The position numbers were made by a program, and so were the translations under genes. From a virus: DNA of 47,640 nt. Numbering within the stretch: the stretch's first letter is position 1; the number at the start of each line of letters is the position of its first letter. Location: IMG/VR virus record IMGVR_UViG_3300044858_003465, positions 1-47,640 of that record; one strand, given 5' to 3'. The notes below the pieces were generated by a model that ran no database searches, was not told the origin of the DNA, and worked only from the letters and a program-made list of their open reading frames with translations. Of the stretch, positions 3,751-29,810 are shown piece after piece.

Positions 3751-4536
3751 TCAGGGCCGGGTCAGTCCTGTAGCGACCACGGCCATGCCCGACTCGAAGC
3801 CCAGGGCCAGTACCGGGCCAGCGCTCCGCAGGGCCGGTAGCAGCGGCACCAGGCCGACCGGGAGCGCAACAGCGGTAGCGTCTGTCGTCGGCAGATCGAG
3901 CATCAACACCACTGCCGCATCGCGCCGGATGGTTTTATCCAGGAAGACCGGGAACGCAACTGCGGTCAATCCGTCAATGGTTGCGTAATCTAGGTTGACA
4001 ACTGGGCCGGCACTTCGCAGCACAGGCAAGAACGGGTCGAGCGTAACTGGTACGGCTACGACTGACATTACGTTAGATAGGTTCAGCAGTAATGGATTGG
4101 CGCCTAGATTTGGTGGTGAGTTGCGCGGGCCATAGACAGACTCGAACGTTAGCTCATAGATAAGGTCAATGGTGACATTAAATCTGCCTTTCTTTACTGA
4201 CTGCTTGATTGGCTCTCTTTCGATTGTCCACGTTGTTCCCGTAAGTCTTTTTCTGAAGTCTGCGTTATTAACGCCTCCCGCCAATTCTTCGGGCAGTTGT
4301 GTTAGCGACCACAATCCGCAACCGCTGGCATACCATGGCAGCAACAGTGCCAATGCTTGCGCATCATTTACGTTTTCAAATGTTAGCTTCCATCTTGAGT
4401 CGCTAGGCAGTGAACCAAGAATCTCAGGGAATGAAGCCGACCGGAAACTAGCGACGATAACCGGATAACCAGGTAGCGTTAGCTCCCAATTTGTTGGAGT
4501 TATTGCCGGCAGTGTTAAGGGTAGGCGTACAGTCAT
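3751..4536 (-). CDS. Minor tail protein with internal repeats
   Basis: The product has 261 residues in two parts. Residues 1-140 match the neighbouring protein at 4533-4961: both have an ENxxxAQA segment, a W...G(L/Y)(W/Y)(G/S)SL strand, a TW segment and a GR-x-(N/T)V-x-(I/L) strand. Residues 155-261 hold repeats in which LRSAGPVVNLDY and LRSAGPVLALGF recur about 70 residues apart, each after a P-x-LP-x-LRSAGPV stretch. The paralogous N-terminus plus an added repeat domain suggests duplication in the tail-tip operon. The start overlaps the upstream gene by four bases. Confidence 0.75.
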   Translation of the reverse strand: MTVRLPLTLPAITPTNWELTLPGYPVIVASFRSASFPEILGSLPSDSRWKLTFENVNDAQALALLLPWYASGCGLWSLTQLPEELAGGVNNADFRKRLTGTTWTIEREPIKQSVKKGRFNVTIDLIYELTFESVYGPRNSPPNLGANPLLLNLSNVMSVVAVPVTLDPFLPVLRSAGPVVNLDYATIDGLTAVAFPVFLDKTIRRDAAVVLMLDLPTTDATAVALPVGLVPLLPALRSAGPVLALGFESGMAVVATGLTRP

Positions 4537-20396: not shown

Positions 20397-21896
20397 TCAC
20401 GCACTGCCAGCGCCTGTTTTTCGACCAGCTCCAGAAGGCGGGAGCGAGCGTCCTGATCCTGCGGCACCATTGGCGTTCTGCGTTTTTTGCTGCTCAAGCA
20501 TAACACGTTCTGCCTCTTTTTTCAACTCTTTAACGGCTTTGCCTAGCTCAACTAGATCCACGTCCTCAGGTATCCATTCGCCTTGGGCCAGGATACGAAG
20601 AAATAGCTCAGTTGTAATCTGACCATTGGCTTCTATGTCGGCCAGCACGGCCACGTCTTGGCCTAGCAAGCGATAGAAGTCAAAGTCCTTGTCGAGAACG
20701 ACCCTAGGTGGTTCTATGCCTCTGTATTCTGCCGCCATTCTAAATGCTTCATTAAGCGCAGCCTGCGTTTCAGTCGCAGCCACTGATAGCACGCAGTTGG
20801 CTTGCTGGTGGTCGATACGCTTTGCGTCGGCACTTTCAGCTACATGCTTCTGACCTAGCAGTTTCGTGACGCCAAGATGCGAGATTTCATTTTCCAGACG
20901 ATCAAGTAAGGCCGCTTGCGCCGCAAAGGAACCGGCGTCACACTGGACCCAGTACGCTTTACTGCCGATATTCATTCTGATGGCATAATTCTGCCCCGTA
21001 ATTGCCTCGTTGCCATCGTATTCTTCCAGTACCAGCAAGCCAATAGCAGCGATATGCAACGAATGCAGAAGGTCTGCTAGGCGCCGGTAGTGAGCGATAT
21101 TTAGGTGCGCAACGTCAGCCAATGGGGGAGTAGCACATAAATAGCCCTCTTTCTCGGCATAGATATGCACTAAAGGAATATAGTCGAGAGGAGTAAACCC
21201 AATATCACCTATTGTTTTATTCGACTCAAACACTTCGTAAGCGCCAGGGACAAGAACGCGAGCAACAAAAACGTACTCTTCCCCGTAGGCGCCTTTAGCA
21301 ACTTTGCGCTCTTCCTGATAGCGAAACATTGTTAGCTTTGCGCCAGGATCGTCACTTTCTCGCCGGCTACCTAAATACTGCCATGGATCAACCGGCACAA
21401 AGTATGGGCGCAGTGGTTCGATTTGATCGTTGCCGGATTGCGCTTCGCGCCTCTCCGCGTCAACGATTATCGACGACATGCCATAAGTAAGCGCAACTTC
21501 TAGCCGCTTTAGAGCAAACAAGTCCAATGAAGTACCGTCGCCATCAACATCTTTCCTAAACTCCTCTTCCCAATATGGATCACCGCCTTCTAGCTTGATC
21601 ATCTTACGCATGACCATGCCGGCTGCGTTATGAATTAAGCGCTTTGTGAACGGCGCCAAAACAGAAAGATTAACGCGAGTCTTCCATGGGTCAATCTTGG
21701 TCTTCGGATCTTCTTGCTCTCTTGGTTCACGCGGCAAATAGATATGTGCATTTGCATGTAAATACTCAGTTCCCTTTGTGACGGCTTGCATTATTTCCCA
21801 CTTTTGCCGCATTCGCCTATTTATGTCGTCCATATAAAATGGACTATCTACGTCTATGTAGTTTGGCAGCGATATTTTTCTGGTTGCTAGGTTCAT
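20397..21896 (-). CDS. Portal protein
   Basis: The product has 499 residues, the usual size of a siphovirus portal. It contains TRVNLSVLAPFTKRLIHNAAGMVMRK near residues 75-100, the N-L-x-R/P-x-x-x-x-x-I-D-x-x-A pattern of portal N-termini (DUF4055-type), and long helices such as RLADLLHSLHIAAIGLLVLEE in the stem region. The C-terminal 40 residues are Gly/Ala/Pro-rich. It adjoins the terminase genes divergently, with 35 bases between start codons, and transcription continues towards the scaffold. Confidence 0.85.
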   Translation of the reverse strand: MNLATRKISLPNYIDVDSPFYMDDINRRMRQKWEIMQAVTKGTEYLHANAHIYLPREPREQEDPKTKIDPWKTRVNLSVLAPFTKRLIHNAAGMVMRKMIKLEGGDPYWEEEFRKDVDGDGTSLDLFALKRLEVALTYGMSSIIVDAERREAQSGNDQIEPLRPYFVPVDPWQYLGSRRESDDPGAKLTMFRYQEERKVAKGAYGEEYVFVARVLVPGAYEVFESNKTIGDIGFTPLDYIPLVHIYAEKEGYLCATPPLADVAHLNIAHYRRLADLLHSLHIAAIGLLVLEEYDGNEAITGQNYAIRMNIGSKAYWVQCDAGSFAAQAALLDRLENEISHLGVTKLLGQKHVAESADAKRIDHQQANCVLSVAATETQAALNEAFRMAAEYRGIEPPRVVLDKDFDFYRLLGQDVAVLADIEANGQITTELFLRILAQGEWIPEDVDLVELGKAVKELKKEAERVMLEQQKTQNANGAAGSGRSLPPSGAGRKTGAGSA

Positions 21897-21931
21897 TGCG
21901 GCAAAGCGTTTCCGGTCAGTCTACCCCTACA

Positions 21932-22630
21932 ATGGTGATGCCGGCGCAGTGGAACGCCCTGATCCGCTACCCTTCACCTTGTCGAAACATGCCAAAAGCC
22001 TGCAGCTTCCTGTCACTTCGCCCGGAGCAGGAAGCCGTGTTCAACGATCAGCGGCGGTTTCGCGCAGCTATCGTAAAGCGCCGCTGGGGCAAAACCTACC
22101 TAGCCTGCGCTGAGCTAGGACGCGGCGCAACCAACAAGGTTGGACACTACCTGTATCTTGCGCCGAGCCCCAGGATGGCAGAGGATGTTGGCTGGGCAGC
22201 AATGCGGGCCATTATTCCTGGCGAACTTATCGAAAAAACCATGCAATCCACTTTGTCGCTTAAACTTAAAAATGGATCGACTATTCACCTGGGAGACACA
22301 GAGAATGTTGACGCTTGGAAGGCATTTGCGCTTCGCGGCGTTGTACTTGACGAGTTTGCGCTTTATGACAAAGATGTTTGGCGCTGTGTTATTGCTCCCT
22401 CCATTGCCGACTCCATTGCCGACTTGCGCGGTTGGGCACTATTTTTGACGACAGCTAGGCAGGACGGAAGCCTTGGCCCCTGCTACGACAGTATAGGCTA
22501 TAAGTTGCAACCTATTTATCACCATGGCAGCTCACGGGGAGAAAATATCTCAGATGGTAATGTTGAGGAAGCGCGTAAAACGCTTTCTAGGCAGGCATTC
22601 AAGGTAGAGTTTGAGGCTGCGATGATGTAA
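21932..22630 (+). CDS. Diverged ATPase-only terminase paralogue
   Basis: The product has 232 residues. From residue 26 (FLSLRPEQEAVFNDQRRFR) it aligns throughout with the N-terminal ATPase domain of the terminase encoded next, and stops before the nuclease domain. Its Walker A reads VKRRWGKT (K54) where the full protein has AGRRGGKT; Walker B is VVLDE (D140, E141), and the coupling segment is LFLTTAR. The Walker A lacks the first Gly and has Trp for a flexible Gly, so its ATPase activity is uncertain. It may be a regulator or partner of the motor, or decaying. A 12-base tandem duplication (22399-22422) adds four residues. The start could instead be ATG at 21989; I chose 21932 because it leaves the same distance to the LSLRP block as in the paralogue. 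Confidence 0.75.
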   Translation: MVMPAQWNALIRYPSPCRNMPKACSFLSLRPEQEAVFNDQRRFRAAIVKRRWGKTYLACAELGRGATNKVGHYLYLAPSPRMAEDVGWAAMRAIIPGELIEKTMQSTLSLKLKNGSTIHLGDTENVDAWKAFALRGVVLDEFALYDKDVWRCVIAPSIADSIADLRGWALFLTTARQDGSLGPCYDSIGYKLQPIYHHGSSRGENISDGNVEEARKTLSRQAFKVEFEAAMM

Positions 22631-22634
22631 TTTT

Positions 22635-24014
22635 GTGACGACTGCCGCTGCCACTGCCCCCACGGGGCTTCGCCCAAGTGGCGACATTGTAGTAGGTAAA
22701 AACCGGCTTTCTCTGCGGCCAATGCAGGGGATGATTTTTAATGATCGACGCCGTTTTCGTGTTGTCTTAGCTGGCCGGCGTGGTGGAAAGACGGTGCTAG
22801 GGGCAATCGAAATGCTGCGCGGCGCTAGTGAGCGCAAGGGCAATTACTATTATGTTGCGCCAACGTATCGGATGGCAAAAGAGATCGCTTGGGATACTTA
22901 CAAGAGTATTATTCCAGAACGCTGGATAAGAAAGAAAAACGAATCAAACCTTAGAATAGATTTGATTAACGGATCTTGCATCTATCTCAAGGGCTCTGAA
23001 GATCCAGATGCTTTGCGCGGTCCTGCATTAAGCGGAGTAAATTTAGACGAATGCGCTTTTCAGACAGAATATACATGGAGATCAGTTATCCGCCCTGCAC
23101 TTTCTGACCGCAACGGCTGGGCGCTTTTTACTACCACTCCTTCGCCTGAAGGCACCGCAGGTTGGTTCTACGAAACAATCTTGCTTCTACAGAATGCTGA
23201 CATGGCCGATCCTGGCCTAGAAAGGCTTGACCCTAAGCAATGGTCATTATATGAGTACACATCCTTGCAAGGCGGCAACATTCCAGCATCCGAGATTGCG
23301 GAAGCCAAAAGAACGCTAGCGCCTGAAGTGTTCGAGCGCGAGTACGAAGCAAGGATACTATCAAATACGGGTCTTGTGGTGTCATGTTTCTCGATGGATA
23401 ATATCGACTCAACGATTGAAGACGATCCAAGGTTGCCGCTATATGTTGGAATGGACTTTAACAACGATCCGCTTACTGCTATTTGCGCAAACATTGTTAA
23501 GGTAAACGGCAGAGCTGTAGAATTGCGAATTTTTAATGAACTAAACCTAAAGGGCGCCAATACATGGGACATGGCAGACGTGCTAATTGATCTATATGGT
23601 GGCGAATGCTGGGCAAGCGAAGACGCGGATACTCGCCGCCGCATTATTGCTTGCCCTGATCCGACCGGCAAAAGAAAGCAAACGTCTGGCGTTGGTGTTA
23701 GCGATCACCAGATTCTTAGGAAGGCTGGCATTACTGTTTTTGCCCCTGAAGCGCCCTATAACACCGCTGACAAGATTCGATCCGTAAACGCAGCATTGCG
23801 CACAGCAGACGGGGAAGTGCATACCAAGATTCACCCACGTTGCCGGGAGCTGATAAAGTCGTTTCGTACACTAGGTTACGCCGAAGGTACAAGAATGCCA
23901 AACAAAAAACTTGGCGTCGATCATGCTTTCGACGCCTTTGGGTATTTATGTCTGGGTAAATTTAACCTTGCAAAAGGCGAATCGGGTACTGTTACTACCC
24001 ACAGAGTCTACTAA
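22635..24014 (+). CDS. terL: Terminase large subunit
   Basis: The product has 459 residues. The ATPase domain has Walker A AGRRGGKT (K52), Walker B VNLDE (D138, E139) and coupling motif TTTPS (166-170). The RNase H-like nuclease domain shows GMDFNNDP (D274), CPDPTG (D342) and GVDHAFDAFGY (D429/D433), the three acidic clusters of active terminases. It packages DNA into the capsid through the portal. Start is GTG five bases after the stop of the paralogue, so the two are co-transcribed; no Shine-Dalgarno is visible. It faces away from the portal gene. Confidence 0.93.
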   Translation: MTTAAATAPTGLRPSGDIVVGKNRLSLRPMQGMIFNDRRRFRVVLAGRRGGKTVLGAIEMLRGASERKGNYYYVAPTYRMAKEIAWDTYKSIIPERWIRKKNESNLRIDLINGSCIYLKGSEDPDALRGPALSGVNLDECAFQTEYTWRSVIRPALSDRNGWALFTTTPSPEGTAGWFYETILLLQNADMADPGLERLDPKQWSLYEYTSLQGGNIPASEIAEAKRTLAPEVFEREYEARILSNTGLVVSCFSMDNIDSTIEDDPRLPLYVGMDFNNDPLTAICANIVKVNGRAVELRIFNELNLKGANTWDMADVLIDLYGGECWASEDADTRRRIIACPDPTGKRKQTSGVGVSDHQILRKAGITVFAPEAPYNTADKIRSVNAALRTADGEVHTKIHPRCRELIKSFRTLGYAEGTRMPNKKLGVDHAFDAFGYLCLGKFNLAKGESGTVTTHRVY

Positions 24015-29200: not shown

Positions 29201-29311
29201 GTCTCACTTGAGACTCATTGCGCCGCAAGGGTTCTCAACAAGTCTCAGTCTCAATCTCAACCGTCTCATCGGTGAGACTGGCCGTTGTCTCATCTGAGAC
29301 TGGCTGAGACT
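29201..29311. repeat. Cluster of GTCTCA/TGAGAC boxes at the 3' end of the small-terminase-like gene
   Basis: About nine copies of GTCTCA or its complement TGAGAC fall in 110 bases, partly outside the gene (29201-29216) and partly in its last codons (DET and ETE repeats). A TTGCGCCGCAAGG box (29218-29230) lies among them. Both motifs recur at 30010-30200 on the other side of the gene. Confidence 0.7.
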
Positions 29312-29810
29312 CACCGGCAGGGAGTACAGGCTGCTCGACCGAGACGGTCAGCACCAGATCCTCCTCGCTCAGGCCAGCGCTCTCACGCATCTCCCCAGCG
29401 ATCTCGCCCGCCCTTTCAAGCCCTTTCAGCGCCATGCCCCATTCGCCCGTCCTGATGGCCCCCTGAATGGCTGTCTGGCGGGTCGCAGCCACCATGGCCC
29501 TACGCAGCTCTGGCGGGGCGCTCTCAGCGGCCATCAGGGCACGCTCAGCGCGGCGCTGAATGCGAGTCAGGGTGGCGTTGGTCAGGTATGAATGCGCCTC
29601 TGCCAGCTTCCATCTAACCTGAACCGGCAACAAGCCAGAGGCATAATAACTGAATGCCTCTCTTGTTAATGCTTCTAAATCTGGCGCTTCTTCTTGCTCG
29701 CTGCTTTGGTCCCAAGATGCCTGCCAAACATTATGTGTGCGCAACAATCTTTCGCTGTCTGGCCGGCAGTGAATGGGAGTGGGGTTAATGCGAGAAAGAG
29801 ACGAATCCAT
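29235..29810 (-). CDS. Possible terminase small subunit
   Basis: The product has 191 residues. After a polar N-terminus come several helices (LEALTREAFSYYASGL, AEAHSYLTNATLTRIQRRAE), then QTAIQGAIRTGEWGMALKGL and ERAGEIAGEMRESAG. A late helix that alternates small residues with G-x-W-x-x-A-L-x-x-L and ends in a Gly-containing turn is the pattern of the oligomerisation domain in small terminases. The tail is acidic. It lies 5 kb from the large subunit and is flanked by repeated boxes, as packaging sites often are. The assignment is tentative. Confidence 0.5.
   Translation of the reverse strand: MDSSLSRINPTPIHCRPDSERLLRTHNVWQASWDQSSEQEEAPDLEALTREAFSYYASGLLPVQVRWKLAEAHSYLTNATLTRIQRRAERALMAAESAPPELRRAMVAATRQTAIQGAIRTGEWGMALKGLERAGEIAGEMRESAGLSEEDLVLTVSVEQPVLPAGESQPVSDETTASLTDETVEIETETC

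Follow-up and report, generated by a model that had tools for sequence, protein, structure and literature searches.

The window analyzed here, a virus record of 47,640 bases, has its head genes in minus orientation, and its ORF list places two TerL-like genes in tandem on the plus strand, divergent from the portal gene. The portal protein gene (20397..21896, minus; phrog_145, 1.9e-74) is followed by a leader (21897..21988, plus) with a TACAAT -10-like box at 21928-21933, by a predicted stand-alone TerL ATPase-domain gene of 213 amino acids that lacks the nuclease domain (21989..22630, plus), and, after a gap of 4 bp, by a complete large terminase gene of 459 amino acids with a GTG start (22635..24014, plus). 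This downstream TerL has both ATPase and nuclease domains; profile searches matched it to Pfam Terminase_6N (2e-11) and to the TerL family phrog_2 (8e-37), with phrog_10250 matching its second half. A candidate small terminase of 191 amino acids lies about 5 kb from terL, at 29235-29810 (minus), and is conserved in the related contig L021; PHROG and Pfam searches with this protein gave no match.

A prior sequence-only reading of the locus had described the first gene as encoding a 232-residue protein that aligns with the ATPase half of TerL and ends before the nuclease. The alignment stands (40% identity over 222 amino acids, E = 3e-49), as does the end point: the ORF stops opposite TerL residue 242, the nuclease domain boundary, and the RNase H-like C-terminal domain is absent. 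The start, and with it the length, needed revision. In the homologue on the related contig L015, the frame from the 21932-equivalent position is shifted and stopped, and the gene has its own ATG at the equivalent of 21989; in the window, ATG 21932 overlaps the TACAAT box. Position 21932 was therefore rejected, and ATG 21989 (213 amino acids) is the more likely start. The earlier suggestion of a profile search against terminase families was borne out for both proteins, with the short one also matching phrog_2 (5.5e-14). Its AlphaFold model (pLDDT 77.7, pTM 0.77) had the TerL ATPase of P74-26 as its best PDB match (E = 5e-10, TM 0.68), followed by T4 gp17, D6E, and Sf6; the Avs3-terminase complex 8dgc was also among the fold matches. 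Because both fold and profile are those of a TerL ATPase, a disguised small terminase was rejected. No HNH, GIY-YIG, or LAGLIDADG endonuclease motif was found in the short protein, whose profile matches were to TerL only. As had been proposed, then, the protein encoded 4 bp upstream of the full terminase is, judging from its sequence, a diverged, nuclease-less paralogue of the adjoining TerL.

Doubled or divided terL genes have precedents in the pair around a homing endonuclease in Enterococcus phage vB_EfS_SE (PMC11510935) and the domain-split terL of phiPDS1 (PMC10773633). Here, however, division of one terL by a mobile element and an assembly artefact are each barely credible, and both were rejected: the TerL encoded downstream is complete and includes an ATPase domain, the domain is thus present twice, the two versions are mutually just 40% identical, and the junction between the short gene and terL occurs in five contigs that bear different IMG sample numbers. 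The ATPase domains of the TerL proteins of P74-26 (PDB 4zni), T4 (gp17), and D6E are like the short protein in fold, Walker A and B motifs, coupling motif, and lid region, but in those phages the ATPase is one half of a nuclease-bearing packaging protein, whereas here it occurs naturally as a separate gene beside a complete TerL. The gp16 of phi29-type phages (PMC7672431) is likewise a packaging ATPase without nuclease activity, yet it is the sole motor ATPase of its phage and has a folded vestigial nuclease domain; the window, by contrast, encodes a full TerL, and its short protein has no such domain. Jumbo phages have been described with two TerL homologues in tandem (PMC11273794). The literature searched, which included few subscription journals, yielded no description of a mobile TerL ATPase that stands alone next to a complete TerL.

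The short protein has all of the TerL-type nucleotide motifs: Walker A (RRWGKT, residues 31-36; 22079..22096, plus) and Walker B (VVLDE, residues 118-122; 22340..22354, plus), each invariant in 5/5 short proteins, and the coupling motif (FLTT, residues 152-155; 22442..22453, plus). The Walker B Asp-Glu and the coupling threonines are thus kept, as the earlier reading had stated. The Walker A that it had called altered is not degraded: every residue of the TerL version (RRGGKT) except the first G is retained, giving the pattern RRxGKT, and the difference it noted comes down to the two residues just ahead of the motif, VK in the short protein versus AG in TerL. Among 81 columns invariant in TerL, 45 are retained in each of the five short proteins (Q14, R31, R32, G34, K35, D121, E122, and T155 among them, in short-protein numbering) and 36 are altered in at least one copy. 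K111 (22319..22321, plus) is a more telling change than Walker A: it aligns with the trans-acting arginine finger R139 of P74-26 TerL, of which PDB 4znj is the R139A mutant. Arg is invariant at this position in 28/28 TerLs compared. Among the short proteins, those of the window and L015 have Lys and those of contigs L003, L004, and L005 have Arg, so that the altered finger is an inconstant feature of these proteins. Since a Lys at the finger position of Sf6 has been proposed as a possible finger (PMC5727402), loss of function at K111 cannot be assumed. The window copy also has a 12-nt in-frame tandem duplication (TCCATTGCCGAC twice; 22400..22423, plus) that is missing in the four relatives.

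The five contigs with a short gene (counted, like all contigs below, after removal of duplicates) are the window, L003, L004, and L005 (93-95% identity), and L015 (67%), the other four being from IMG/VR. The reading frame is intact in all five, with no stops or frameshifts. Among the window and its close copies dN/dS was 0.27-0.43 (Fisher p 0.002-0.07 for individual close pairs), and between the window and L015 it was 0.29 at a dS of 0.79 (Fisher p = 2e-11), compared with 0.06-0.10 for portal and about 0.1 or less for TerL. These values indicate that selection acts on the short product, though less strongly than on TerL. Two signs of a decaying duplicate had been named beforehand, namely absence of the short copy from related phages and relaxed selection on its frame. 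The first is indeed seen, in that most related phages lack the copy, but the second is contradicted by the dN/dS values; together with the five intact frames, these led us to reject a pseudogene in favor of an accessory, horizontally exchanged gene.

Between portal and terL, the short gene was found in 5 contigs, an HNH endonuclease gene in 3, and neither in at least 41. The phages with an empty site include some with TerL 95-98% and portal 91-100% identical to those of the window, and L175, which has 88% DNA identity to L015, also does without the short gene. With so patchy a distribution, a core role in packaging is unlikely. Alignment searches found no relative of the short protein in GTDB genome contigs and no further short gene in IMG/VR, although both need exact short peptide patterns, so that diverged copies may be missed. 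GenBank phage records that matched the short protein (610) and TerL (1243) did so at one place each, such that the tandem pair is absent from them at that sensitivity, and a DNA search of the phage collection gave no match.

Most empty alleles have a 76-bp gap between portal and terL with a conserved TACAGT box. The HNH_3 endonuclease genes that occupy the same site lie on the minus strand of their contigs (L182:3400-3906, L188:846-1352, and L189:615-1124; Pfam 2e-13 to 5e-12). A leader of roughly 60 bp that precedes the short gene recurs before the HNH gene; the likeness is clearest for the short gene of L015 and the HNH genes of L188 and L189, and the version in L182 is more diverged. Empty alleles lack this leader, and the rest of the window and of the scanned loci yielded no further copy of it. 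No consensus sigma-70 promoter was found at the leader, and the TACAAT box is a putative promoter element. The short gene likely occupies a homing-type insertion or has replaced its cargo, and homing may have moved it. Free-standing homing endonucleases of T-even phages (seg/mob; PMC2988022) are similarly optional, intergenic, situated beside essential genes, and spread in mixed infection; unlike them, the short protein has no endonuclease motif, and just the site and leader are common to it and an endonuclease gene. In phage vB_EfS_SE, too, a homing endonuclease site is associated with a pair of terL-like ORFs; the endonuclease gene separates the two and was proposed as their cause. Here, in contrast, the first gene is a diverged ATPase-only paralogue and the second a complete TerL, and the window genome has no endonuclease gene at the portal-terL site.

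Silent divergence offers a further view of how the gene has moved. At fourfold sites, the window and L015 differ by 0.34 in the short gene (95% interval, 0.23-0.46), compared with 0.55 in MCP, 0.56 in portal, and 0.59 in TerL; the interval for the short gene is separate from those of portal and TerL and just touches that of MCP. The short gene is also less diverged than portal at fourfold sites between the window and L003-L005. This lower silent divergence relative to flanking genes suggests that the short gene probably moved between phages after the phages themselves had diverged, the alternative being slower silent evolution of the short gene (GC3 is similar). In a tree built without the paralogues described next, the short proteins formed one clade (100/100) on a long stem, sister to the TerLs of the group (100/98); when these paralogues were included, the wider placement became unstable, owing to their long branches.

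At a second site, downstream of terL, four related contigs encode further nuclease-less TerL ATPases (L021:2314-3009, plus; L113:4016-4699, plus; L187:494-1165, minus; and L022:4759-5391, plus). Against a profile of short and TerL ATPase sequences, these scored 4e-21 (L021), 7e-25 (L022), and 4e-29 (L187), in very small search sets. The paralogues of L021, L113, and L187 stop at the domain boundary where the short protein ends, and that of L022 breaks off earlier and has lost Walker A; the finger position is Val in L021 and L113, Ser in L187, and Arg in L022. The L021 and L113 proteins are 95% identical, and their genes differ by a dS of 0.04, far below the 0.42 of TerL, which suggests that the second-site gene has been exchanged too. 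A 4-residue repeat, WLSPWLSP, sets L021 apart from L113 and resembles the 12-nt duplication at window 22400-22423. Other proteins of 138-194 amino acids at the second site (L010, L019, and others) were rejected as paralogues, as they have at most a P-loop-like N terminus in common with TerL. They belong to a variable small gene 1.3-2.6 kb downstream of terL (146-147 amino acids in L008, L010, L014, and L027; 194 in L019 and L026; 138 in L020; and 98 in L011), the product of which has a conserved C terminus (DLKPRxxVDRLRxADILQAM...PEEWMDEL) and an N terminus that is P-loop-like (SGRQCGKSA) in some copies and degraded or missing in others. L008 also encodes, on the strand of terL, a 184-amino-acid protein of the endolysin family phrog_10051 (4e-67) at 3844-4395 (plus); similar ORFs lie at that place in several relatives, and none was seen there in the window.

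We regard it as nearly certain that the short gene is accessory and intact and encodes a TerL ATPase domain that stands alone, derived from a sister lineage of the group's TerL and horizontally exchanged at a site that can also hold an HNH gene; its identity, intactness, purifying selection, accessory status, common site, and younger silent divergence are established. What such a gene does is a separate matter. It could be a partial terL copy, neutral or slowly decaying, that homing-type recombination created or moved and that is kept via frequent exchange at the site. The site and leader in common with the HNH gene would fit this, as would a dN/dS of about 0.3 where TerL and portal have 0.05-0.1, the 36 altered columns, and the loss of Walker A in L022. 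We consider such passive carriage rather doubtful, however, because dN/dS is well below 1 across a dS of 0.79 without a single stop or frameshift, the catalytic motifs are all invariant, and three second-site paralogues end at one and the same domain boundary.

Alternatively, the short protein, made just before TerL, might form mixed rings with it or bind TerL, TerS, or DNA and thereby tune initiation or speed of the phage's own motor. The two genes are probably cotranscribed, to judge from their layout, because the allele with the short gene stands in place of the gap in which the promoter-like box of terL lies; terL, 4 bp away, would then be read through the short gene. Isolated TerL ATPase domains are able to oligomerize (PMC5727402), and the last 13 residues of the short protein are 92% identical between the window and L015 despite an altered middle. 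Yet phages with near-identical TerL and portal proteins do without the gene, it differs from terL in silent divergence, and similar paralogues occur at another site away from terL, all of which make a modulator of the resident motor unlikely.

Since the nuclease domain and C-terminal arm are absent, the short protein would not be a packaging motor alone. In D6E, the isolated TerL ATPase domain is reported to be pentameric, loss of the nuclease to take kcat from 7.8 to 458 per minute (about 59-fold), and the C-terminal arm possibly to touch the portal (PMC5727402). Given a gene that is optional, mobile, and at a site common to an endonuclease, we favor action against competing phages, at a probability of roughly one in three: the short protein would act in trans on the TerL rings, or on TerL partners, of co-infecting relatives without the gene. 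It most likely retains an ATP-bound TerL ATPase fold and, with the pocket kept and the nuclease and arm absent, might join a ring yet neither dock nor cut. Through entry into TerL complexes, or their titration, it would favor its own genome, and its 40% identity to the resident TerL would limit damage to its own motor. ATP binding, ring entry, and interference are here what we infer; the case for competition is drawn from mobility, location, and patchiness, which a neutral hitchhiker could show too, and the short protein may fail to bind rival TerLs.

A TerL-like fold might instead occupy a TerL-sensing receptor of the Avs/AVAST type without triggering it. Avs1-3 recognize the large terminase (PMC12724215, PMC12931631), the Avs3-terminase complex is among the fold matches, and an accessory, mobile, fold-conserving gene fits what is expected of counter-defense; an intact ATPase domain might itself trigger the sensor, however, and no comparable decoy was found in the literature searched, which renders an immune decoy improbable. 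Tentatively, the genes at both sites may form one class of exchanged TerL ATPase domains that serve either as dominant competitors of the packaging motors of other phages or as decoys for TerL-sensing immunity.

Few phage proteins are as conserved as TerL, which bacterial immune receptors also target. A natural, selected, mobile, TerL-ATPase-only gene would be a tool to probe whether motor rings tolerate foreign subunits, and would help ask whether one phage can sabotage the packaging of another and whether defenses that sense TerL are blunted by mimics of it.
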